Shown here piece after piece: positions 48,230 through 63,822 of a DNA stretch of 64,000 bases; position 1 is the first letter of the stretch, and each line of letters starts with the position of its first letter. The stretch is from Phycisphaerae bacterium (GTDB lineage: Bacteria; Planctomycetota; Phycisphaerae; UBA1845; Fen-1342): assembly GCA_017999985.1 (NCBI GenBank), contig JAGNKU010000008.1:186001-250000 (forward strand), read 5' to 3'. The position numbers and the translations under genes were made by a program. The notes under the pieces were generated by a model. It ran no database searches and was not told the DNA's origin. It worked only from the letters and a program-made list of their open reading frames with translations.

Positions 48230-49426
48230 TCAAACGCTGGGCGCGGCCACGGCGCAGGAGCCATCGCGTTCGGGTAGCGCCGCTGGACTGAGCCCGGCCA
48301 CAAACCGCCGCATCGCCTTCTGTGCGAACTCGTTCCGCAGGCGGTAGTAGTGCATGACCATCGCCATCTCGTCGTGCCCGACCCACTCCATCACGGTCGC
48401 CATCGGGATGCCGACTTCCGCGCAATGGCTGACAAAGAACCGGCGGAAGTTGTGCAGCGTCAGCTTGCTCTCCTCGATCCCCGTCGCGGTGGCGAGCGCC
48501 TTCAACCGGCCCAGGTAGGTCCGCTCGAAGTAGTCGGCGCGTGAACCGACCGGCGGCAGCGGGACCACGTAGCCGCCTTGACTTTCGGTCCCCAACTCGT
48601 CGAGCGCCTGCCAAACCAGCGGGCTGACCGGAATGACGCGGTCAGTCTTGTCCTTGGGTAAAAAGTAGACGCCGTCGGCCGTGATTTTTCGACGGACCTG
48701 CAAGATGTTCAGGTCGCGGTCGAGATCGCTCCACTCCAGCATGCCGAGTTCGGAGCAGCGCATGCCCGTGCTGGCGAGCATCACGAAAACGGAGCGGTCG
48801 CCCGGTTCGGCGGCGTCCCTGATCCGTCGATACTCGGCTTCGGTATAAGTCACCTTACGCGGCGATTCCTCGTCAAAAAGCAGGCGCACTCCGTAGCGTT
48901 GCTGCGATGCTGGGTTGACGTGGAGCCGGCCCGTCGCCTTGCACCAGTTGAAGAAGCTGCGCAGCGCAATGAGCTTGTTGTCCACCGTCACCCGGTCGTT
49001 GCCCTGGTCGAGCGACCACTGTCGGAAGTCGAGCACGGTCTCGGTCGTGATGCTGGGCAGCCGCGTGATGGATCGCTTGGTGGACAGGAACTTGCGGAAG
49101 CCGGCGACGATGCTGCGGTAGCTCGAATACGTGTTTGGCGTGTTCTGGACGCGCTGGTATTCGAGCCAGCCGTCGAGCGCCGACTCGACGCGATCATCGG
49201 CCCGAAGAGCCGGTGGCTCGGGTAGGCCGAACTCGGCCCGCGTCAGCTTGAGCGACATGCCCTCCGCCCAAAGAAGCGCACCCTTCTTGTCGCGGTGCCG
49301 GGTTGAGAGACTGCGCCACACGCCCCGTTCGTCGCGGAAGTGAAAATGCCAGATGCGTTTGAGCTTCCGCAGGATGCCCCTGCCCGCATGCACCTTGTCC
49401 TGTTCGTTCTTGCTCCACTTTGGCAT
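48230..49426 (-). CDS. Tyrosine recombinase / integrase
   Basis: 398 residues. ATG 49426 (MPKWSKNEQDK) has GGAG 8 bases upstream. N-terminal arm-binding-like region, SAM-like core-binding domain (ALDGWLEYQRVQNTPNTYSS) and catalytic domain with Arg in STGMRCSELGMLEW, a Lys in PKDKTDRVIPV, HNFRR (H-x-x-R), and GH...YY (WVGHDEMAMVMHYYR) holding the nucleophilic Tyr. All catalytic residues are present, so it should be active. It probably mobilised the surrounding region; no att site next to it could be identified. Confidence 0.92.
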   Translation of the reverse strand: MPKWSKNEQDKVHAGRGILRKLKRIWHFHFRDERGVWRSLSTRHRDKKGALLWAEGMSLKLTRAEFGLPEPPALRADDRVESALDGWLEYQRVQNTPNTYSSYRSIVAGFRKFLSTKRSITRLPSITTETVLDFRQWSLDQGNDRVTVDNKLIALRSFFNWCKATGRLHVNPASQQRYGVRLLFDEESPRKVTYTEAEYRRIRDAAEPGDRSVFVMLASTGMRCSELGMLEWSDLDRDLNILQVRRKITADGVYFLPKDKTDRVIPVSPLVWQALDELGTESQGGYVVPLPPVGSRADYFERTYLGRLKALATATGIEESKLTLHNFRRFFVSHCAEVGIPMATVMEWVGHDEMAMVMHYYRLRNEFAQKAMRRFVAGLSPAALPERDGSCAVAAPSV

Positions 49427-49532
49427 GATCGGTTCTCCAGTTTGGACGTGTTCTGTGCGTCGGCATGGGGCCAATGGGAGCCCCACCGAGCGGCCGCTTT
49501 GCTGGAATTATCAATCGCCAGGAAGGAGAGAC

Positions 49533-53412: not shown

Positions 53413-54150
53413 ATGATCCTGCCCAGCACCGTTGAGCAATACCTGACCAGCCGGGATTTCAGCCCACACACTCAAAAGGCGATCCGGGCGGACCTGCGGA
53501 AGTTCGCGGCGTGGTTCGTCGCGGCCAACAACGAGCCATTCAACGTCACGAGGATCACCGTGGCCGACCTGACCGCATTCCGCGACCACCTGGTCGGCGT
53601 CCGTCGTCAGGCCGTGGCGAGCGTCAACCGGGCACTGGTTTCGCTGCGGCGGTTTCTTGGGCATCTTGTGCAGAGCGGCGAGCTTCCGACAAACCCCGCG
53701 ATAGCGGTGAAAGAGCTTCGCCGCGTGCCTCTGGCACCGAAAGGTCTGACTGCGGCCCAGATCCGGCGGATCATGCGGGAGATTGAGATCCGGCAGGACG
53801 TGCGGGCGGGAGCGATCATCGCGCTGATGGCCCTTGGTGGTCTCCGCGTGTCCGACGTAGTCGGCCTGGACCTTCAGGATGTCGTGATCAACCCCCGTTC
53901 GGGCAGCGTCATCTGCCGGCACGGGAAAGGGAACAAGCAGCGGGTCGTTCCGCTCTGCCGCGAGGCCCGTCGGCTGCTGACTGCATACCTGGAGGTCCGG
54001 CCACCGACGGCCGCAACCCGCGTGTTCATTGGCGAGCGAGGCCCGCTGACCGACGACGGCGTGCGGGCAATCTGTGAGCGATACGCCGCGACTTGCGGCG
54101 TGGACTTCACGCCTCACCGCCTGCGGCACGCTGCGATGCGTGGTGCGTGA
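53413..54150 (+). pseudogene. Tyrosine recombinase truncated before its catalytic tyrosine
   Basis: 245 codons from ATG 53413. XerC/D-like: N-terminal SAM-like domain (FSPHTQKAIRADLRKFAAWF, ALVSLRRFLGHLV), catalytic Arg in ALGGLRVSDVVGLDL, Lys in RHGKGNKQRVVPL and the start of the H-x-x-R box in TPHRLRHAAM. The frame then stops, so the remaining H/W and the nucleophilic Tyr (normally ~35 residues later) are missing and it should be inactive. Immediately afterwards the sequence switches to the tail of a serine recombinase. Confidence 0.8.
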
Positions 54151-54799: not shown

Positions 54800-55972
54800 C
54801 TATGCCATCTGGCGCCCTTCCGTGCCGATCATTGGGTGACGTATTGCGTCCGGCGCCGCCTGTCTGTACTCCGGCAGTCGCCCGACGGCGCCCGCTGTGT
54901 CCAGTACACGCGGGTCAGTGTACGTGCCGGCCGTGAGCTTGTAGTCCGTGTGCCGCATCAATTGCATGATCGTGCGAGGCGATACGCCGGCCCGTTCCAG
55001 CTCGGAGCAGAACGTCACACGCAAGCTGTGAAAGCCGACTGTCAGCACGTCGCCAACGCGGCACTCGATTCCCGCCCGCTCGCAATCGGCCCAAAAGGTT
55101 TCACACCTGGGGATCGTGACGAACACAGGGGCGCCAGGATCAACGCCAGCCGGCCTAGATTCGCGCAGGCGCAACGCAAGCCCCGGGGGTAGGGGGATCG
55201 TGTCAGCCCGCCGGCTTTTCGTGGCTTCCGGCCGCAGCTCCAGGCGCGGACGGTCATCGTCTAGCCGCACGTCCTGCCATTGGAGCTTGCCGAGTTCGCC
55301 CAGGCGCAGCCCGGTCCCGAGCGCCACGCGATAGAGCAACTCACGCGGACCGGCCACGGCCAGTAGCCGGAGCACTTCGTCTGGAGCAAGCGCCCGCCGC
55401 TGGCGCCGCCGGCAGCCCCGGTCGTCAATCGTCGGCAGCGAGGCGAGGGGGTTTCGGTCCAGCCGGCCGGCGCCCACGGCCCACAGACAAAACGCAACGG
55501 CCGTCGCCCGGTCGTTTTTGATCGTCCTGGGCGACGCACCGGCAGCCCGGCGCGATTCAAGATACTGGATCATCGCCTCGCGGCCCACGTCCGGCAGCCG
55601 GCGCCAGCCACACGCGGAGCCAATCGCAGTCAACGCCGCATTCACGTGTGCAATGTAGGCCGGGTCACGTCCGCCCAACCGCAGCTCCGCAACGTAGTCC
55701 GCGACGTTTTCAGCGAACGTCCCGCGCCGCTTGTTCGTCAACTTGTCCACGAGCCCGAACGATTCCAACAGGCGCCGGGGGAGCGTCCGCTCCATGTCCG
55801 GCGTGATAGGATCACCGGCCGCCTTGCGGTCCACCGCCTGTTGCAGCATGGCGTGCCACCGCGCGGATACCGAGCGGTCCGCACAGAACCTGGCCCGCTT
55901 GTGCGCGTATGGCCCCAAGGCAATCGAGCCGTGCCAATCGTCGCGCCCCGCAACCTTGATTAGCTTCGCCAC
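54800..55972 (-). CDS. Prophage tyrosine integrase
   Basis: 390 residues. GTG 55972 (VAKLIKVAGRDD) has GGAGGG 7 bases upstream, and the upstream gene stops 4 bp before, so they are coupled. Core-binding domain (YVAELRLGGRDPAYIAHVNA) and catalytic domain with Arg in GTGLRLGELGKLQW, Lys in EATKSRRADTIPL, HSLR box, RH (LMRHTDYKLTAG) and Tyr in TYTDP. All catalytic residues are present. It should insert the element at the neighbouring tRNA 3' end. It is the last gene of the minus-strand run. Confidence 0.93.
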   Translation of the reverse strand: MAKLIKVAGRDDWHGSIALGPYAHKRARFCADRSVSARWHAMLQQAVDRKAAGDPITPDMERTLPRRLLESFGLVDKLTNKRRGTFAENVADYVAELRLGGRDPAYIAHVNAALTAIGSACGWRRLPDVGREAMIQYLESRRAAGASPRTIKNDRATAVAFCLWAVGAGRLDRNPLASLPTIDDRGCRRRQRRALAPDEVLRLLAVAGPRELLYRVALGTGLRLGELGKLQWQDVRLDDDRPRLELRPEATKSRRADTIPLPPGLALRLRESRPAGVDPGAPVFVTIPRCETFWADCERAGIECRVGDVLTVGFHSLRVTFCSELERAGVSPRTIMQLMRHTDYKLTAGTYTDPRVLDTAGAVGRLPEYRQAAPDAIRHPMIGTEGRQMA

Positions 55973-55976
55973 GACG

Positions 55977-56543
55977 TTACCCTCCAGCGTTCGCCTGCTT
56001 CGTCTTCGATTCGGCCAGCCACTCATCAAAGCTCGCAATCATGATCCGCTTCGCTTCCCCGAATGCGATTTTGCGTCGCACGAGCAATGCCTCCGCGAGT
56101 TTTCGAACGGCGTAGTGGTTGTGTTGGATCATGTTCCGCGCGCGGTATTTCAGATAGGCTAAGTAGGCGTCGAGTTCCATCGTGTCGCGTGACGCGCGCC
56201 CCTGCATGTAGGTCAGATAGCTTAGGCACTCGCATGCGTTGCCATAGTCGGCATCGGCGCCGCATTCGTCAAAGTCCTCCCCGATGCACAATCCGGCGCC
56301 GGCCGCACCAGCCAGAGAACACAGCGCCAGCGATTCCACATACGCCCGGTCGCGCGCTTTCGGCTTAAGTTCGCTCGCCAGCCGTTCGCGTCGCTTGGGA
56401 TCATGGGTTTTCTTATGCAAAACGTGCCCGAGCGAGTCGCCCTCGGGCTCAATCGTGACATGCCGACACGCTAGCCCGAGCAGCCACGCCACGACAGCGT
56501 GCCCGGCCTCGTGATACGCCGTTCGCTTTTCGTCCTGTTCCAC
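55977..56543 (-). CDS. FtsH/M41-like zinc peptidase domain protein without AAA+ domain
   Basis: 188 residues. GTG 56543 has a perfect AGGAGG 7 bases upstream; a frame to 56,567 is less supported. TAYHEAGHAVVAWLLG is the HEAGH zinc-binding motif of FtsH-family (M41) peptidases, followed by VTIEPEGDSLGHVLH, as in FtsH (RVSIVPRG.ALG). A later Asp in GEDFDECGADADY could be the third ligand. There is no ATPase or membrane segment. Sits directly before the integrase. Role unknown; it could process a phage or host protein. Confidence 0.8.
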   Translation of the reverse strand: MEQDEKRTAYHEAGHAVVAWLLGLACRHVTIEPEGDSLGHVLHKKTHDPKRRERLASELKPKARDRAYVESLALCSLAGAAGAGLCIGEDFDECGADADYGNACECLSYLTYMQGRASRDTMELDAYLAYLKYRARNMIQHNHYAVRKLAEALLVRRKIAFGEAKRIMIASFDEWLAESKTKQANAGG

Positions 56544-56566
56544 GCCGCACCTCCTAGTTTTCGCCA

Positions 56567-57115
56567 CTATGATGCATTTCGCATTTCACGAGTGCGACAA
56601 TTGCGGCCCGTTACTCGATCAGCAGCAACGTGGTACAGGCCACAGAGCGGACATCGCCAAACCCCCAGGCGCACGCGATTCCAAAAGCCTTCAAAATACC
56701 GCCGGTTTAACTCACAACATGCTGTCACGTCCGGCAGGCACACCCGATGCCAGCTCAAGTGCGTAGGCGCCGGCCAGCCGCGACGCTGCCACGCCGTCCG
56801 ATTGTCACGCGACAGCGCGACCGCCAGCGATTGACGCCCGACGCCCCGCGCCAGCGACCGCGACAACCTGGGGTAGCCGTGGTCATCGAGCCAGACCGCC
56901 ACCGCCGGCCGATCAGCCGGCGCCAGCTTCGCGAGTTCACGCGGAGCCAGGCGATACGGCAGCTCGGCGCAGCACTCGACACACCACGCCCCGGGGTAGT
57001 GGCCCGAGCCGTCCCGGTACTGCTCGCCAACCGGGACCGGACCGGAGTGCCAGGGGCAGGAACACGCGAACACAGCCAACGCCGGGGGGCCGGTCGGAAA
57101 GTTCAAGTCGTCCAT
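56567..57115 (-). CDS. Cys-rich protein with zinc-ribbon-like motif
   Basis: 182 residues from ATG 57115 (MDDLNFPTGPP), with GAGGG 7 bases upstream. Cys pairs are spread along the chain (CSCPWH, WCVECC, ACCEL, WRCPLCGLYHVAADRVTGRNC), the last resembling a zinc ribbon. The rest is Arg- and Pro-rich. No family recognised; perhaps a nucleic-acid-binding accessory factor of the element. Same strand and close spacing as the peptidase and initiator genes. Confidence 0.6.
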   Translation of the reverse strand: MDDLNFPTGPPALAVFACSCPWHSGPVPVGEQYRDGSGHYPGAWCVECCAELPYRLAPRELAKLAPADRPAVAVWLDDHGYPRLSRSLARGVGRQSLAVALSRDNRTAWQRRGWPAPTHLSWHRVCLPDVTACCELNRRYFEGFWNRVRLGVWRCPLCGLYHVAADRVTGRNCRTREMRNAS

Positions 57116-57346
57116 GTTGTCACCCTCAGAACGGGGCTCGGCGAGGGTCGGCTATTCGCCCACAAGTGGCGACCGGGGCCTTACGGCTTGCCGCGACACC
57201 TCGCCGAGCTGTTCATCGCGCGCGAGAAAGCGCGCTTCCGGTAAATGGGGGGCTTGTGGTTCATAGCACCTGAAGTATCGGCCATGTTTTGGCCCGCGTC
57301 AAGTTCCCGAGCAGAAAAACAACGCCAAGCCGAACACACGGGGGGG

Positions 57347-57994
57347 TCAAAACGGCAGCCCGTCGCTTTCGTCTGGCGCCCCTGGCTCGCCGGCTACGCT
57401 CGGGCTACGCCGGCGAGCTTCGTCGTCGTCATAGAACAAGTCGCGCGGGTCGGGCACGTCGTCGGGGTATTCCTCGTCATCAGGGCGATGTGATTCTCGA
57501 GAGTCTTTCCCTGTAATGGGGGACACGGCCGCCGCTCTTGCGGCGTCGGCCGTGTTCCCCTTCTGTAGTTCTGTAAGGGGGGCACTTTTTGTCCCCAATA
57601 ATGGGTACTTTTTGTCCCCCATCGGGGTACTTTTTGTCCCCCATCGGGGTACTTTTTGTCCCCTATCATTGGGGTACTTTTTGTCCCCTATATGGGGGCA
57701 CTTTTTGTCCCCTATTGGCAACGCCAGCACCAGCACCGCCGGCCCGGTCGCGCGGCTGCCCGGCGTGACCACCGTCACGAGCCCGAGCCGCCGCAACTTC
57801 GTCAACGCCCGGCGCACCGTCCGCACGTGACACCCGAGCGCTCGCGTGATGCGCGACTGCGAGACTGATACCCGACCGTCGCGGTCCGCGTGTCGGAACA
57901 GCAGCAACCAAACGGCCACGGCAGCCACGCCAAGCCCGTGCGCATGATGATCCGCAAAGTCGTTTAGCATGGCCCACCGGCTACCCCGTTCCAT
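57347..57994 (-). CDS. Winged-helix replication-initiator-like protein with iterons in its coding sequence
   Basis: 215 residues from ATG 57994, with AGAGG upstream. The N-terminal ~85 residues form a winged helix (VWLLLFRHADRDGRVSVSQS, HVRTVRRALTKLRRLGLV), as in phage and plasmid initiators or replisome organisers. Residues ~95-140 are encoded by six DNA repeats and read as GDKKYP, GQKVP or GTKSTP depending on frame. The C-terminal third is acidic and disordered (DDEEYPDDVPDPRDLFYDDD) and ends in DESDGLPF, like the SSB acidic tip. Overlaps the upstream HTH gene by 14 bp. Role inferred from architecture, not from homology search. Confidence 0.7.
   Translation of the reverse strand: MERGSRWAMLNDFADHHAHGLGVAAVAVWLLLFRHADRDGRVSVSQSRITRALGCHVRTVRRALTKLRRLGLVTVVTPGSRATGPAVLVLALPIGDKKCPHIGDKKYPNDRGQKVPRWGTKSTPMGDKKYPLLGTKSAPLTELQKGNTADAARAAAVSPITGKDSRESHRPDDEEYPDDVPDPRDLFYDDDEARRRSPSVAGEPGAPDESDGLPF
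57577..57715. repeat. Six iterons, candidate replication origin
   Basis: Six copies of (T/C)ACTTTTTGTCCCC at 57,583, 57,606, 57,628, 57,650, 57,675 and 57,699, spaced 22-25 bp (about two helical turns), each preceded by a run of G that makes GGG...CCCC flanks. They lie inside the initiator-like gene and are translated in all three frames, which indicates conservation of the DNA itself. Confidence 0.75.
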
Positions 57995-58187
57995 CCGTCA
58001 CCTCTACGCGGTCCGGTCGCTTGCAGCCGCACTCGATAAACCGCGCCAAGTCCGAAGCACGCCACCGACACGAGCCGCCAAGCTTCACGGCCGGGGGAAT
58101 GTCACCGCTGGCCGCCAGCCGCCACACGCTACGGACGGCCACGCCGAGCAGCTCGGCTACCTCGCGCACCCTCAAAAGCTTGTCCAT
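57981..58187 (-). CDS. AlpA/excisionase-type HTH protein
   Basis: 68 residues from ATG 58187 (MDKLLRVREVAELLG). The motif LRVREVAELLGVAVRSVWRL, AASGDIPPAVKLGG and CRWRASDLARFIE is the classic MerR-fold excisionase/AlpA pattern (HTH plus wing). Overlaps both neighbours (58 bp upstream, 14 bp downstream), so it is translationally coupled to the initiator-like gene. Probable directionality factor or early regulator. Confidence 0.8.
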   Translation of the reverse strand: MDKLLRVREVAELLGVAVRSVWRLAASGDIPPAVKLGGSCRWRASDLARFIECGCKRPDRVEVTDGTG

Positions 58188-58374
58188 CGTCCAGGACCAC
58201 CACGCCACCGCCCGGGCACCGAGCCCGCGCCGCATCGCTGATAACCCGCGAGTCGAAGTAGACCCGCCGGCCACGCCGGATCACGTCCAGCGAACCAATC
58301 CGCGCCCAACGCCGCACCGCGTCGGCGCTCACCCCCAGCACCTGGCCCGCCTCGCGAGCCGTCAAAAGTCGCAC
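58129..58374 (-). CDS. HTH (MerR/excisionase-fold) DNA-binding protein
   Basis: 81 residues from GTG 58374, with AAGGGG upstream. LLTAREAGQVLGVSADAVRRWARIGSLD and RVYFDSRVI give an HTH plus wing close to the downstream protein but with a different tail (GGGVVVLDDGQAFEGA). Two overlapping excisionase-fold genes in a row suggest a lysogeny/excision control pair. First gene of the coupled operon leading to the initiator. Confidence 0.7.
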   Translation of the reverse strand: MRLLTAREAGQVLGVSADAVRRWARIGSLDVIRRGRRVYFDSRVISDAARARCPGGGVVVLDDGQAFEGARGSRAARRGRP

Positions 58375-58625: not shown

Positions 58626-58823
58626 TCAATGGCACGCCTTGGCTTGAGCCATGCGGGCGAGCTCGCTCTTGATGCGCGGCAACTGATCGGAGCTGTAGAC
58701 GAATTTCCCGCCAACCGTGTCAATTGGCTGAATGTGTCTTGACTTCAGGCAATAGCGCAGGACGTGAATCTCAACGCCGCATTCCTTCGCTAGCTGGCCG
58801 ATGCTGTAAATCTGTTTTGTCAT
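58626..58823 (-). CDS. Small MerR-fold regulator
   Basis: 65 residues from ATG 58823 with AAGGA 8 bases upstream. YSIGQLAKECGVEIHVLRYCLKSRHI is a MerR-type HTH, followed by a short wing (GGKFVYSSDQLPRIK) and a helical end. No effector or dimerisation domain. It is separated from the HTH operon by about 250 bp containing a hairpin with T-runs, and from the tape measure gene by about 240 bp. Confidence 0.75.
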   Translation of the reverse strand: MTKQIYSIGQLAKECGVEIHVLRYCLKSRHIQPIDTVGGKFVYSSDQLPRIKSELARMAQAKACH

Positions 58824-59066: not shown

Positions 59067-61643
59067 TCACGCGTCCGCCGTTAACACCTGTTCCAGATTG
59101 CCGGCTGCCCGCTCGCTGATCTGCACAAGCTTCTCGACGCCGCGTGCCGTCCGTTCGGCTGTACTGGCACCCGCCAGGCCGCCGACGCTGGACGCCAGGA
59201 ACGTACCTTGCACGGCTATCTTCTGCTCCATCGCTGCCGCAAGGTTTGCTGCGGTTGGCAACGCCATAGCCGGCATCGCCGGCAGCTCGCCTAATGCACC
59301 GGGAGCTGCCCAGCCCTCGGCCGATTCACGCAGCAACTTCGCCTGTGCGAGCGCATACCGCAGCCGGCCTTGCGCTTCCTTCAATGCCGCTTGGGCCGCG
59401 TTGATGCGCCCGGCCGATGCGGTCACCAATGCAGACTCAAACTCCGCTTGGGCATCGGCTACAGCTTTCATCGCCCGGTCGCGCTGGCCCTTGGCAACGT
59501 CGGCCGCGTCCCGGCGGGCTTGCTCGATCTGTGCCCGCTTGGCGTCCGCCTCGTCGGCAATCCGCGCTTGCCGCTGGTCCGCCCGCTCGCTCGCCGACGC
59601 CCTCGCGGCCTCAACGTCATACCACGGATCGACCGTGCCGCGCAGCTCGATCCATTCCTCCTCGACACGGGCTACCAGTTTTCCCGTGGTGCCGAGGAAC
59701 CACTCGGTGAAGCCGACCCACAGTCGCTTCAAAAAGGCTATAACCTCGTGGATTGCGCGGGCAATTCCGTAGCATGTGTAAATGAACACGCGCTCCATCC
59801 GCGTCGCGAAATCAGACATCGCGGTATACGCGCCCGTGCGCAGGTTTTCGAGCACCTCTAGCAAGCCCGCCGCCCCGGTTTGCCACGTGGCTTTGAGCGC
59901 TGCCCACAAGACAACCGCCGCCGCTTGCACGTCGCCGGTTGCCATTGCGTCGGCAATGCCGCCCATCACGCGGCCCGCGACCCGCTGGAGCTCACCAAAA
60001 CGCTGCATCAACCATTGCAACGCCGTCGCCGCTGTGCCAGTCTGGTAGACCACAACCGCGCCAAGCGTGCCCAAGGCCGCGACCACCAGGCCAATCGGGC
60101 TAGCCAGCGCAGCGAGAGCCGCACCGCCGGCTAACGTGGCGGCCTTCAAGCCGCCGAGCACGGCCGCCAAGCCAGAGATCGCAACGCCAGCCGTTTTGAA
60201 TGCTACACCGGCCGCAACCAGCGCAGCACTGGCCCCAATCACGCCGGCCGCGATGCCGCCAATCGTCACGACCAGGGACCGATTCGCATCGACCCAAGAA
60301 GCCACACCTCGCGCAACCACCGTCAGCCGCGTGATGATCTCCGTCAGCGCTGGTGCGAGCGCACCGCCGATGGTGAATACCGCCGACTGGAGCACCCGCC
60401 GCAAGCGACTGAAAGCGTCCGAAAGCCTGGCCGCCGCCGCGGCATCCTGTGTGCTAATCGTGATGCCGAGCGCTCGCGCTTCGGCCCGCATTGCCGCGAG
60501 CCCCCCCGTAGCCTCACGCACAAAAGGGAGCAGCGACCGAGCACCTTTGCCGAACACAGCCAGGGCCGCCGCCGCACGTTGACCAGGGTCGGGCAACTTG
60601 GCTAGTGCTTCGGACACCACGGCAAACTGTGTGTCCAGCTTCAGGCCCGCGAGGTCGCCGGCAGACAATCCCAAGCGTCCCAACGCATCGGCCGCCGTCT
60701 TGCTGCCGTCCGCTGCTGCCCGGATCGTCTGTGAAAGCTTGACGATCGAATCATCGACGTCATCGCGCAGCGCACCACCAGCCGCACTAGCCGCTTGACG
60801 CAAGCCAGCCAGGCCATCGGCCGCCGTTACCAGCGTTGGGAGCAACGCCCGGCCATTGTCGCCGAAGATCGAAAGCGCCAGGGCCGCACGCCTGGCCGGA
60901 TTCTGGACACGTGACAACGCATCGGCCACGGTTTCCGCTTTGCGACCAGCTCCCAACCCCGCGAGGGCCTCAGCACTAACGCCGAGCCCGGCGCCGGCCA
61001 ACGCCCTATCATTCACCACCAGGCCAAGCCGAGCCACCGCCGCAGCCGCCGTCCCGGCTGCATTCTCGACGCCAGCGAGCATCGGCAATAGGTTTGTGCC
61101 AGAGCGACCGAAGATCTGCAACGCAGCCGCCGTTCGCGTGGCCGGATCGGACACACGCGCGAGCGCTGCACTCACCGCGTCGAATTGCTGATCGGCGTTG
61201 AGCCGCATGAGCGCATCAACGCTCAAGCCAAGCCGCTGGAATGCTTCGCGTGCAACCTTGGAACCCTGTCCAGCTTCCACGAGCGAACGCTGCATCAACC
61301 GTGCAGCCTTTTCCACGTCGCCGATAGATGTTCCGCTCAGCTCGGCCGCATAAGACAGCTCCGAGAGTGACTCGACCGACATCCCGGTACGCTTGCTCAT
61401 TTTGTCCAGCGTGTCGCCCTGGCTCGCAAACGAGCGCACCGCTAGCCCGAGCGCACCGGCCGCACCCACGCCGAAAGCCGCCATGCGCACGCCGACGCGC
61501 TGAAATGAATCACCAATACCGCGCAGCGTCGCCGAGAATGCCAGAAGCCGCGCACGCGCACGCGCCAAGCCGGCCGCTATCTTGTCATTAACGCCGAGCT
61601 CGACGTAGGCGCGACCAGCCCGAATACCACCAGCATCAGCCAT
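59067..61643 (-). CDS. Phage tail tape measure protein
   Basis: 858 residues from ATG 61643. Start ADAGGIRAGRAYVELGVND, then a coiled/helical region with FASQGDTLDKMSKRTGMSVE (the TP901-type tape measure opening), three ~60-residue repeats (131-192, 213-276, 317-378) ending in IFGxxGxxLLP, a long hydrophobic middle (about 470-560) and a Lys/Arg/Ala-rich coiled coil. Tape measure proteins set tail length and are ejected with the DNA. The length predicts a short siphovirus-type tail. It lies 59 bp after the capsid gene with no tail-tube or chaperone genes between. Confidence 0.88.
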   Translation of the reverse strand: MADAGGIRAGRAYVELGVNDKIAAGLARARARLLAFSATLRGIGDSFQRVGVRMAAFGVGAAGALGLAVRSFASQGDTLDKMSKRTGMSVESLSELSYAAELSGTSIGDVEKAARLMQRSLVEAGQGSKVAREAFQRLGLSVDALMRLNADQQFDAVSAALARVSDPATRTAAALQIFGRSGTNLLPMLAGVENAAGTAAAAVARLGLVVNDRALAGAGLGVSAEALAGLGAGRKAETVADALSRVQNPARRAALALSIFGDNGRALLPTLVTAADGLAGLRQAASAAGGALRDDVDDSIVKLSQTIRAAADGSKTAADALGRLGLSAGDLAGLKLDTQFAVVSEALAKLPDPGQRAAAALAVFGKGARSLLPFVREATGGLAAMRAEARALGITISTQDAAAAARLSDAFSRLRRVLQSAVFTIGGALAPALTEIITRLTVVARGVASWVDANRSLVVTIGGIAAGVIGASAALVAAGVAFKTAGVAISGLAAVLGGLKAATLAGGAALAALASPIGLVVAALGTLGAVVVYQTGTAATALQWLMQRFGELQRVAGRVMGGIADAMATGDVQAAAVVLWAALKATWQTGAAGLLEVLENLRTGAYTAMSDFATRMERVFIYTCYGIARAIHEVIAFLKRLWVGFTEWFLGTTGKLVARVEEEWIELRGTVDPWYDVEAARASASERADQRQARIADEADAKRAQIEQARRDAADVAKGQRDRAMKAVADAQAEFESALVTASAGRINAAQAALKEAQGRLRYALAQAKLLRESAEGWAAPGALGELPAMPAMALPTAANLAAAMEQKIAVQGTFLASSVGGLAGASTAERTARGVEKLVQISERAAGNLEQVLTADA

Positions 61644-61702
61644 AGTCTATCCTCGCGAGGGGGGCGCGGTTTGCGCCGCGCCCCCCGAGTCTAGTGGTAT
61701 TG

Positions 61703-63601
61703 CTACTCAGCTTCGCCAGTACACTTCGTCGCCGCCAGGGGTTCAACCAGCGAGCAACCAACGTCGATATAGCCTCGCCATTGCAGGCCGAGCGTATTAA
61801 AGTCCTGCTCGGCTTGCTCGATAGTCGGCGAGTCTTTGCCGTCGAGGAAGCTCACAACCACCGCGCCGTCGGCCGGGGCCGCGAACAGATACCACGCCAC
61901 GGCAGACGTGCCGGTAAACAACGTGCTATTGCTCAGCCGGGGTTCAACCGCGAGCGTCAGTGCGTTAAAATGCACGTTGCCCTCGGGTTGCCGGTCCGTG
62001 CCGTCCGCGACGTAGCGCGCGACGGTTGTAGATGCGAGCAGTTCACGCGCGGAGTTTTCCAGGGCCGGCGGAACCAGCAGCACGCGCGCCCGCAAGTCGA
62101 GGTTGTGTCCGGCCGCGTCCGTGCGAGCCGCCATATCGGCCAGGGCAACCGTTAACGCGTGCGAAGAAAGCGCCGTGTCCGTGCCGGCCAGCAAGTTACT
62201 GTTGCCGACGCTGAAGAAGTCCGCGTCCGCGCTGTCCTTGTTCGCCAGCAGGCGCGTGTAAATCAGGTCGCTGACTGTGCGCGCGCCAGCCCGGCCGATG
62301 TGCGCGGCCGTCTGCTGGAAAATGCCGAGATCGTCGTTGATGATATCACGCCGATCAATGCTGAGCATCATCGCCCGCGTGCTAGCCGTGACCGTCTGCT
62401 GCGAATCCTCAAGCGTGCCGTGGTGAATCTCGCCGCCAGGTGGCAATTCGGAGAAGTCCGAGCCACACAAGATGCGAATCAGCTTTTTCGACTTGAAATC
62501 CGAGCAACTCACCACGTTTGCGAATGCGCGCCAACTCGACGGGGTTTCGCGATAGCTTTCAAGTGCAAACTTGCCGGCCGCATCGGCCAGCGCGTTGCTG
62601 AGATCGATGCTAGACAGCGCTGCGCGAATCAATCCCACCCGGTCACGCGGGGGCACCTGGCCAGACGCACGGACTGCCGTAGCGCAAATGTCCAGCAGCG
62701 AATGGCACCGCAAGTCCGCCGCTTGCTGCGCGACCCGCGCGCCGAGCTGCTTCTCGGCAATGTCCGGCCGCCCCGCCCGAAGCAGCAACGCTGCCGTGAG
62801 CAGCTCGTGCGGCTTCGCATATTCCTGCGGCGTGGTCGCGAAGCAAGGCTTGAGCACCGGCCGCTTAGCCCGCAGAATTTCCAGCTCCACCTTGTTCAAG
62901 TCCCAACCCTCGGCAATGGCCTTCGCCTCGATGGCGGGGAAAGCCGTGCCGCACAGCCGCGCGATGCCCGCCAACCGCTGTGATTCTTTCACGTCCACCG
63001 TTTCGGTGTCAGTCGCCACCGATTCATCATCGGTCGCGGTAATGATCCTGTCTTCGTCCAATCCAGTGTTTCCTGTGTTTGCTGCGGCGCGCCTCGCCGC
63101 CAGGGATACTCTTGTGTCAGCGTCCGCCGCCAGCGCGACGATGCTTACCTCTTTCAGCTCGCCCTTCGATACGAGCGTCAATCCGTTGGCCCCAGCTTCG
63201 ATGCTGCGGCCGTTCACGCGGACAGTTTGCCCCGGCTTGATGTAACTCGACACGTTCGGAGCGACTCCGACCGAAGCGCCGAGCCCCACACCAGCCTTGA
63301 GCAGGTCCGCGACGTGCACACCGGCCGACGTTCCAACCAACGTGCCGGTGATTGTGAGCTGATTATCCTTCACCTGGGGACGGCCCGTACCGACCACGGA
63401 GCCCAGCGCGTTTTCGTGGTCCGCGAGCAGTGTCAACTGCTCCGGCATCTTGAGCCCGCGCAGGTCGATTGCCACGTCGCCCCAGCCGTCAACCTTCATC
63501 GAGCCGCCGGTGTATGCCAGAATGCGCACACGCGGGGGGCCTTTGCCGGCCTTCGCCCGCACGAGCGTATCCGCCGCTGGAAATGTTAAAAGCTTGTTCA
63601 C
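61703..63601 (-). CDS. Prohead protease / major capsid protein fusion
   Basis: 632 residues from GTG 63601, which overlaps the upstream stop (GTGA) and has GAGGT upstream. An ATG at 63,718 in the same frame lies inside the preceding gene. The N-terminal ~180 residues have the layout of a prohead protease (WGDVAIDLRGLKMPEQLTLL, ADHENALGSVVG, GVGLGASVG, LKEVSIVALAAD). A linker rich in Asp/Thr leads to an HK97/Mu-gpT-like capsid domain: TLEDSQQTVTASTRAMMLS, INDDLGIFQQTAAHIGRAGA, LLVPPALENSARELL, VEPRLSNST and DVGCSLVEP. Such fusions are known in some phages. The protease probably frees itself after shell assembly. Confidence 0.88.
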   Translation of the reverse strand: MNKLLTFPAADTLVRAKAGKGPPRVRILAYTGGSMKVDGWGDVAIDLRGLKMPEQLTLLADHENALGSVVGTGRPQVKDNQLTITGTLVGTSAGVHVADLLKAGVGLGASVGVAPNVSSYIKPGQTVRVNGRSIEAGANGLTLVSKGELKEVSIVALAADADTRVSLAARRAAANTGNTGLDEDRIITATDDESVATDTETVDVKESQRLAGIARLCGTAFPAIEAKAIAEGWDLNKVELEILRAKRPVLKPCFATTPQEYAKPHELLTAALLLRAGRPDIAEKQLGARVAQQAADLRCHSLLDICATAVRASGQVPPRDRVGLIRAALSSIDLSNALADAAGKFALESYRETPSSWRAFANVVSCSDFKSKKLIRILCGSDFSELPPGGEIHHGTLEDSQQTVTASTRAMMLSIDRRDIINDDLGIFQQTAAHIGRAGARTVSDLIYTRLLANKDSADADFFSVGNSNLLAGTDTALSSHALTVALADMAARTDAAGHNLDLRARVLLVPPALENSARELLASTTVARYVADGTDRQPEGNVHFNALTLAVEPRLSNSTLFTGTSAVAWYLFAAPADGAVVVSFLDGKDSPTIEQAEQDFNTLGLQWRGYIDVGCSLVEPLAATKCTGEAE

Positions 63602-63822
63602 GTGAGCACCTCGCATTTTGGCCAGGTCGCGCGCTGCGGCGCTGGCTTTGTCTTTCTCTTGTGTCGCCGACCCCTGTACAGCTCGCGAGCCTCGTCGCAA
63701 TTGCGTGTGCCACGACATGGCGGATACAGACTACAGCCCCAGAATTGCCGGCCGCAGCTTTCGCGCAGCCGCATCGCCGCGCCGCAGAGCGGACACGGAA
63801 CGAAATACTCATCACGCGCCAT
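63598..63822 (-). CDS. Topoisomerase-type C4 zinc-finger protein
   Basis: 74 residues from ATG 63822 with GAGGGG upstream. VPCPLCGAAMRLRES and GRQFWGCSLYPPCRGTRN form the four-Cys zinc finger found at the C-terminus of bacterial topoisomerase I, here free-standing with a basic tail (GRRHKRKTKP). Its start overlaps the previous stop (TGATG) and its stop overlaps the capsid start (GTGA), so it is translated in a coupled chain. Probably binds single-stranded or packaged DNA. Confidence 0.8.
   Translation of the reverse strand: MARDEYFVPCPLCGAAMRLRESCGRQFWGCSLYPPCRGTRNCDEARELYRGRRHKRKTKPAPQRATWPKCEVLT

Follow-up and report, generated by a model that had tools for sequence, protein, structure and literature searches.

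A six-copy array of a 13-bp sequence, GGGGACAAAAAGT, located inside a winged-helix (WH) gene of a Phycisphaerae bacterium, is interpreted here as a set of iterons which are bound by the protein of that same gene and which most likely form the replication origin of the integrated element carrying them. This reading, which was reached by sequence comparison and structure prediction, is given a probability of roughly 0.77. Positions refer to the window, the whole stretch of 64,000 nucleotides that was analysed; its features are collected in Table 1.

Table 1. Features of the element within the window, with the evidence for each assignment.
Feature	Position	Strand	Basis
Left attachment repeat, GTGACGTATTGCGTCCGGCGC	54836..54856	.	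In integrase gene's 3' end
Tyrosine integrase	54800..56038	-	PF00589, 63.9 bits
M41-peptidase-like small protein	55977..56567	-	PF01434, 37.4 bits
Cys-rich 182-aa protein, matching no family	56567..57115	-	Pfam/PHROG
WH initiator-like ORF, 215 aa	57347..57994	-	Pfam, PHROG, AlphaFold
C-terminal extension of the WH ORF, predicted	57347..57574	-	GC by codon position
Long GC-rich hairpin after the putative iterons	57518..57560	-	Inverted repeat and folding
Linker with TACAGAA direct repeats, TTACAGAACTACAGAAG	57560..57577	-	Position and sequence comparison
Putative iteron array, 6 x GGGGACAAAAAGT(A/G)CCC(C), period 22-25	57584..57712	-	Motif and genome-wide counts
Putative iteron copies	57584-57596, 57607-57619, 57629-57641, 57651-57663, 57676-57688, 57700-57712	-	
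AlpA/HTH_17 excisionase-type regulator	57981..58274	-	PF12728, 50.5 bits; PF05930, 27.7 bits
Second HTH_17 regulator	58129..58374	-	PF12728, 29.1 bits
MerR-type small regulator	58626..58823	-	PF13411, 27.6 bits
Tail tape-measure protein	59067..61643	-	phrog_8462, E 1.4e-59
Prohead protease-major capsid fusion	61703..63718	-	PF25209, 124.7 bits; phrog_4523, E 3.8e-59

The six copies are exact over the 13 bp, with start-to-start distances of 22, 22, 23, 24 and 25 bp, and in most of them the core is extended to GGGGACAAAAAGT(A/G)CCCC. All lie within the WH ORF, so that the putative iterons are part of the coding sequence of their own candidate initiator; they fall in frames 0, 0, 1, 2, 0 and 2 and are translated, in the same order, as GDKKCP, GDKKYP, GQKVP, GTKSTP, GDKKYP and GTKSAP. 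A preliminary description of this DNA had reported six repeats in the WH gene, 22-25 bp apart, in all three frames and with the readings GDKKYP, GQKVP and GTKSTP. Copies, spacing, frames and peptides were all confirmed, GDKKCP and GTKSAP being encoded as well, while the length of the core had to be corrected from 14 to 13 bp. The sites are palindromic (GGGGAC-AAAAA-GTaCCCC). Two adjacent copies repeat each other in tandem and exactly over 22 bp (GGGGACAAAAAGTACCCCGATG), indicating that the array grew partly by recent duplication; elsewhere the spacers have drifted around an invariant core.

In the 5.23-Mb genome GGGGACAAAAAGT occurs six times, each time in the array, and the reversed control sequence does not occur; with up to two mismatches allowed, seven matches were found, compared to 0.73 expected in shuffles. 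A generic hexamer shuffle test of the window array alone gave a p of 0.035, and this was counted against the best explanation. A scan of genome contigs with the window's own 12-mer pair gave no match, and the 13-mer was not found in the searched literature. AT content is 52% in the array and 55% in the adjoining 20 bp, as compared to 36% in the element, with no longer AT tract adjoining. GC skew, which had been suggested as a check for an origin, carried no origin signal and was uninformative.

The domain encoded upstream of the array (approximately aa 1-94) contains the recognition octet CHVRTVRR at aa 55-62. Residues 20-73 match PF13730 (HTH_36) with 42.8 bits, against a cut-off of 25, and a Pfam search with the ORF gave no match to RepA_N (PF06970) at E <= 0.1. 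The best PHROG matches are replication-initiation families, with E values of 7e-7 and weaker. The AlphaFold model (pLDDT 89) resembles the plasmid initiators 4pql, 4pt7 and 5kbj, found among many general WH regulators, and its viral fold matches include phage O proteins. Downstream of the array the ORF is predicted to encode an acidic C-terminal tail with the ending ...DESDGLPF, which resembles the C-terminal tip of SSB; the GC content of this part by codon position (0.74/0.53/0.66) is coding-like and we infer that it is translated. No homologue of the tail was found among 101 relatives.

The WH domain belongs to a family of Planctomycetota that is carried on integrated elements. Homologues of the WH protein were found in 17 of these 101 related genomes, and approximately 20 strong members among 397 genomes of the class. 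The family is nearly absent from the phylum-wide sample, and sampling at the level of the phylum added one member. The family profile matches the window copy at E 7.7e-35, and in alignment A1, which includes that copy, the columns R6, N11, F13, D15, W29, L32, R34, G40, G54, L67, G79 and G84 are invariant. A comparison of the WH protein with GenBank phages and plasmids yielded no homologue, the GenBank phage collection contained neither a WH homologue nor a similar array, and a peptide-pattern search of viral contigs gave no confirmed match. A second WH relative is present in the same genome (L031, G000:C9:138893-139201; 45% identity); it has a degenerate array, AlpA-like and Zn-ribbon genes upstream, an integrase downstream, and neither primase nor helicase in its surroundings.

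In nearly every member the WH domain is followed immediately on its 3' side by 3-6 repeats with a period of 22-26 bp, a trait that the window shares. The array of a typical relative consists of a palindrome, a half-site with an A/T run, and a palindrome. An automated repeat test was positive (p <= 0.01) in 32 of 48 members. Among 170 regions that follow other ORFs on the 3' side it was positive in 14, and of these six or more are themselves WH arrays. In most relatives the array is situated 3' of the stop codon, and by this comparison the in-gene position is a local variant within the family. The preliminary description had named two outcomes that would speak against selection on the DNA: homologues that keep the peptide and lose the repeats, or repeats produced by slippage and found in no relative. 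Neither was encountered, as the relatives keep the period and the position of the array and keep neither the encoded peptide nor the letters of the repeats.

Beyond the array, relatives carry a short hairpin, TCCCATAAGGGACCATAAG, or variants which preserve its stem (GTAC-AGAA-GTAC, GTACCC-TAC-GGGTAC), and the order in the family is the short hairpin TCCCAKAAGGGACCAKAA followed by a long hairpin of varying sequence. In the window the long hairpin and the TACAGAA linker are kept: the former has arms of 18 nt (57518-57535 and 57543-57560) that are 89% complementary, with a folding z of -6.57, and TTACAGAACTACAGAAG is the counterpart of the relatives' TCCCATAAGGGACCATAAG motif, in a version that lacks the short CCC/GGG stem. 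By single-sequence folding, 40 of the 44 long hairpins fold better than shuffles (z < -2); a combination of MAFFT and RNAalifold was abandoned, having recovered the short stem alone because the long stem misaligns. A search for the short hairpin in the genomes of 84,980 species returned 52 loci, mostly in Planctomycetota; of these and one viral contig, 35 have a WH domain just upstream. No Rfam family was found for the hairpins. A separate, sub-threshold match to c4-2 RNA, a family of phage antisense RNAs, lies on the minus strand in the gap that separates the WH gene from the following one (57135-57208; 33.2 bits against 41, E 0.003).

Were the repeats read by the WH protein, their letters would be expected to follow its recognition helix and not kinship. 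In a set of 37 members, in which half-sites were curated by eye, similarity of the half-site was correlated with that of the recognition octet once the rest of the domain had been removed (partial Mantel r 0.467; p 0.0002, the floor of the test), and the rest of the WH domain added nothing (0.057, p 0.17). With half-sites chosen by machine in 27 members of less than 75% identity, r was 0.355 (p 0.0001), and a scan of all 8-residue windows in this set peaked exactly at the octet. The best-scoring columns for bases 1, 3, 4 and 5 were 61, 56, 62 and 59, respectively. R62 pairs with C at base 4 (17/18 vs 0/15, Fisher 1.5e-8) and an aliphatic residue 61 with T at base 1 (8/9 vs 1/24, 5.6e-6), in residue-level tests that were chosen after the data had been seen and in which relatedness is partly controlled. 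When the helix columns are left out of the tree, base 4 is seen to change 12 times, and five of six supported independent pairs agree, with none opposing (p 0.06).

The three helices nearest to that of the window (RTVRR) pair with (A/C)GGACA; the relative closest to the window in the remainder of the domain has CGGAAG. Since the window helix predicts GGACA and the window repeats read GGGGACA, the WH protein is predicted to bind them, and the repeats of the array are very probably its binding site. The family-wide co-variation also supports the earlier suggestion that selection acts on the DNA. A residue-to-base code in which residue 61 specifies base 1, 56 base 3, 62 base 4 and 59 base 5 forms part of the family reading given below and, like it, is somewhat favoured.

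A mechanism can be proposed in which the GGACA half-site is read by residues R61, R62, T59 and H56 of the recognition helix. On the excised element, several WH protomers would assemble at the array, and the DNA, once bent and opened by them, would pass to the replisome. In most relatives the latter would comprise a DnaB-like helicase and an archaeal-type primase which the element itself encodes upstream, while the window element, which encodes neither, would recruit both from the host or from a helper phage; the lack of the relatives' primase and helicase was counted against the origin reading. The downstream hairpins may be part of the origin or may end the initiator transcript. The gene order in the relatives examined is AlpA, a DUF669/SSB-like gene, the primase small subunit (PF01896), DnaB_C (PF03796), WH, repeats, hairpins, HTH and integrase; the primase, DnaB-like and SSB-like neighbours, present for example in L032-L034, are common in the family and not universal. 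Several of these elements measure 9-10 kb and are flanked by repeats matching tRNA 3' ends. With respect to the initiator/iteron pair proposed in the preliminary description, the co-variation and the primase, DnaB-type helicase and SSB-like neighbours argue for the pairing, and we infer the replication step.

One alternative explanation is that the repeats are operators, i.e. that the WH protein is a regulator which binds the palindromes and controls its own operon and the downstream HTH and integrase genes. The co-variation of helix and half-site would then be regulatory, and the same pattern would be expected. The position of the palindromic sites in relatives, with the WH gene on one side and the HTH/integrase genes on the other, agrees with such a role, as does the promoter-like sequence that follows the hairpins there, but in the same relatives the WH gene ends a primase/helicase/SSB operon, and a run of 3-6 regular repeats with a hairpin behind it looks like an iteron origin. 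Similarly, most WH proteins of the family are 130-160 aa long, without an obvious helicase-loading domain, and many of the fold matches are regulators; the best PHROG matches, however, are replication-initiation families, and the coding sequence that houses the window array is an unusual site for an operator. Regulation is considered unlikely to be the explanation, as it fits less well than the origin reading with the primase and helicase neighbours and with the in-gene array.

Even less can be said for the view that the array is a functionless slippage artefact or a low-complexity stretch translated by chance: the two copies identical over 22 bp and the failure to find WH homologues or comparable arrays among the GenBank phages favour it, but the diverged spacers around an invariant core, the equivalent arrays with unrelated letters at the same place in relatives, and the prediction of the repeat letters by the recognition helix make it highly improbable. 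An equally slight chance is assigned to the repeats being arm-type accessory sites at which the integrase or the AlpA-like protein acts in excision and integration, since, although both proteins are encoded by the element and an integrase gene lies downstream of the array in relatives, the attachment repeats are 2.7 and 8 kb away and the repeat sequence follows the WH helix and not kinship.

The element on which the putative origin is located measures 10.85 kb (54836-65690) and is bounded by the 21-bp direct repeat GTGACGTATTGCGTCCGGCGC, the right copy of which (65670-65690) lies beyond the window end. In addition to the genes in Table 1 it encodes a Zn ribbon and a sigma-like protein. Genes for a primase, helicase, terminase or portal were not recognised between its ends, and the SSB-like neighbour of the WH gene is absent from it. 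It is an integrase-bounded element with capsid and tape-measure genes and not a complete phage; having only these two, it may be what is left of a prophage, or a satellite that brings its own genes for particle size. Relatives of the integrase are common, and the M41-like protein, used to find sister elements, had no homologue in 150 related genomes.

Several features were noted in the vicinity. A fuller-looking prophage is found 30 kb away on the same contig (G000:C8, ~268-290 kb; window coordinates ~82-104 kb, past the window end), with terminase-like, portal-like and tail genes as judged by eye; relative to it, the capsid fusion and the tape-measure protein of the element (59067-63718) are 33% and 36-49% identical, respectively. 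Just outside the right attachment repeat, at window coordinates 66079-80210 and likewise past the window end (L029, L030), is a defence-island-like cluster in which a patatin-like and a nucleotidyltransferase gene (a CBASS-like pair), an ImmA/IrrE-like gene and a type I restriction-modification system were recognised by eye. Two more integrase-type ORFs (48230-49486 and 53413-54150) lie to the left of the element, suggesting an insertion hotspot.

Iterons within an initiator gene are of a known sort. The repeats of lambda O are inside the initiator gene (PMC7466680), and the window protein shares with lambda O an N-terminal helix-turn-helix. Unlike in ori-lambda, a lambda P-type partner is not visible in the window element, and the arrays of the family usually lie after the stop codon, have widely varying half-sites and are followed by the conserved double hairpin; the lambda O-like in-gene position proposed in the preliminary description holds for the window and does not extend to most relatives. 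The Rep boxes of pSK41 likewise lie within rep and are bound by the N-terminal WH domain of its product, and the part of the protein whose codons make up the origin can be dispensed with (PMC5703833). The iterons of RepA_N initiators have the form of semi-palindromes that converge at a poly-A tract (PMC7145576), a layout matched by GGGGAC-AAAAA-GTaCCCC, and the structures 4pql and 4pt7 connect the window model with this group (pSK41; the RepA of PLE satellites); the window domain, however, is PF13730 and not PF06970, and the host phylum differs. The Rep of pPR9, whose rep region supports autonomous replication, has a PF13730 N-terminal domain (PMC5703833), as does the window protein, but carries the C-terminal domain of pSK41; it is likened here by domain and not by iterons.

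The window array also matches the Lactiplantibacillus plasmid pLB1-2C (NZ_CP025994.1) over 91% of its length (E 8e-16). Four 22-bp repeats (TGGACAAAAAGTACCCTATTGG) with the same GGACAAAAAGTACCC core are situated there beside a Rep_3 initiator gene, an example of this core in use next to a plasmid initiator. That initiator is Rep3_N/Rep3_C, an unrelated family, and the likeness of the repeats may therefore be a convergence. Two IMG/VR contigs (L001:5968-6060 and L002:1878-1946) contain GGGGACAAAAAGTCGA repeats in non-coding DNA, and on neither of these GGGACAAAAAGT-bearing contigs was a WH relative found; single 16-mers in nine other viral contigs were discarded as not being arrays. Repeats resembling GGGACAAAAAGT recur in this manner beside seemingly unrelated genes (L001, L002, pLB1-2C).

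Phage-inducible chromosomal islands (PICIs) and PLE satellites are small integrated elements with an integrase, an AlpA-like regulator and an initiator/iteron module (PMC6092414). The window element is like PICIs in having an integrase, AlpA- and MerR-type regulators and attachment repeats, and unlike them in having no pri-rep gene or primase, though an origin-like array is present; it also differs from both in carrying capsid and tape-measure genes. No paper was found in the searched literature that joins Planctomycetes with satellites and iterons, or with phage satellites.

With in-gene iteron origins already known from lambda O and pSK41 Rep, the earlier claim of a new origin-initiator pair is retained at the level of the family, where the specificity code and the conserved double hairpin would be the new elements. 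We lean, by a small degree, towards an undescribed, phylum-wide family of replicon modules on integrated elements of Planctomycetota, whose one-domain WH initiators would, on repeated occasions, have changed specificity in concert with their iterons. In the window the array would have moved into the reading frame, a tail would have been gained, and the primase and helicase would have been lost; the conserved double hairpin may be a second part of the origin or an RNA part.

Such a family would add a replication module to what is known of the mobile elements in Planctomycetota. Its more than 30 natural pairs of helix and iteron, built on one scaffold with many half-sites, would be enough to read a specificity code, and bear on the old question of how new origin/initiator specificities, and hence new incompatibility groups, arise. 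The comparison of helix and repeat sequences may likewise be used to find origins in other phyla.
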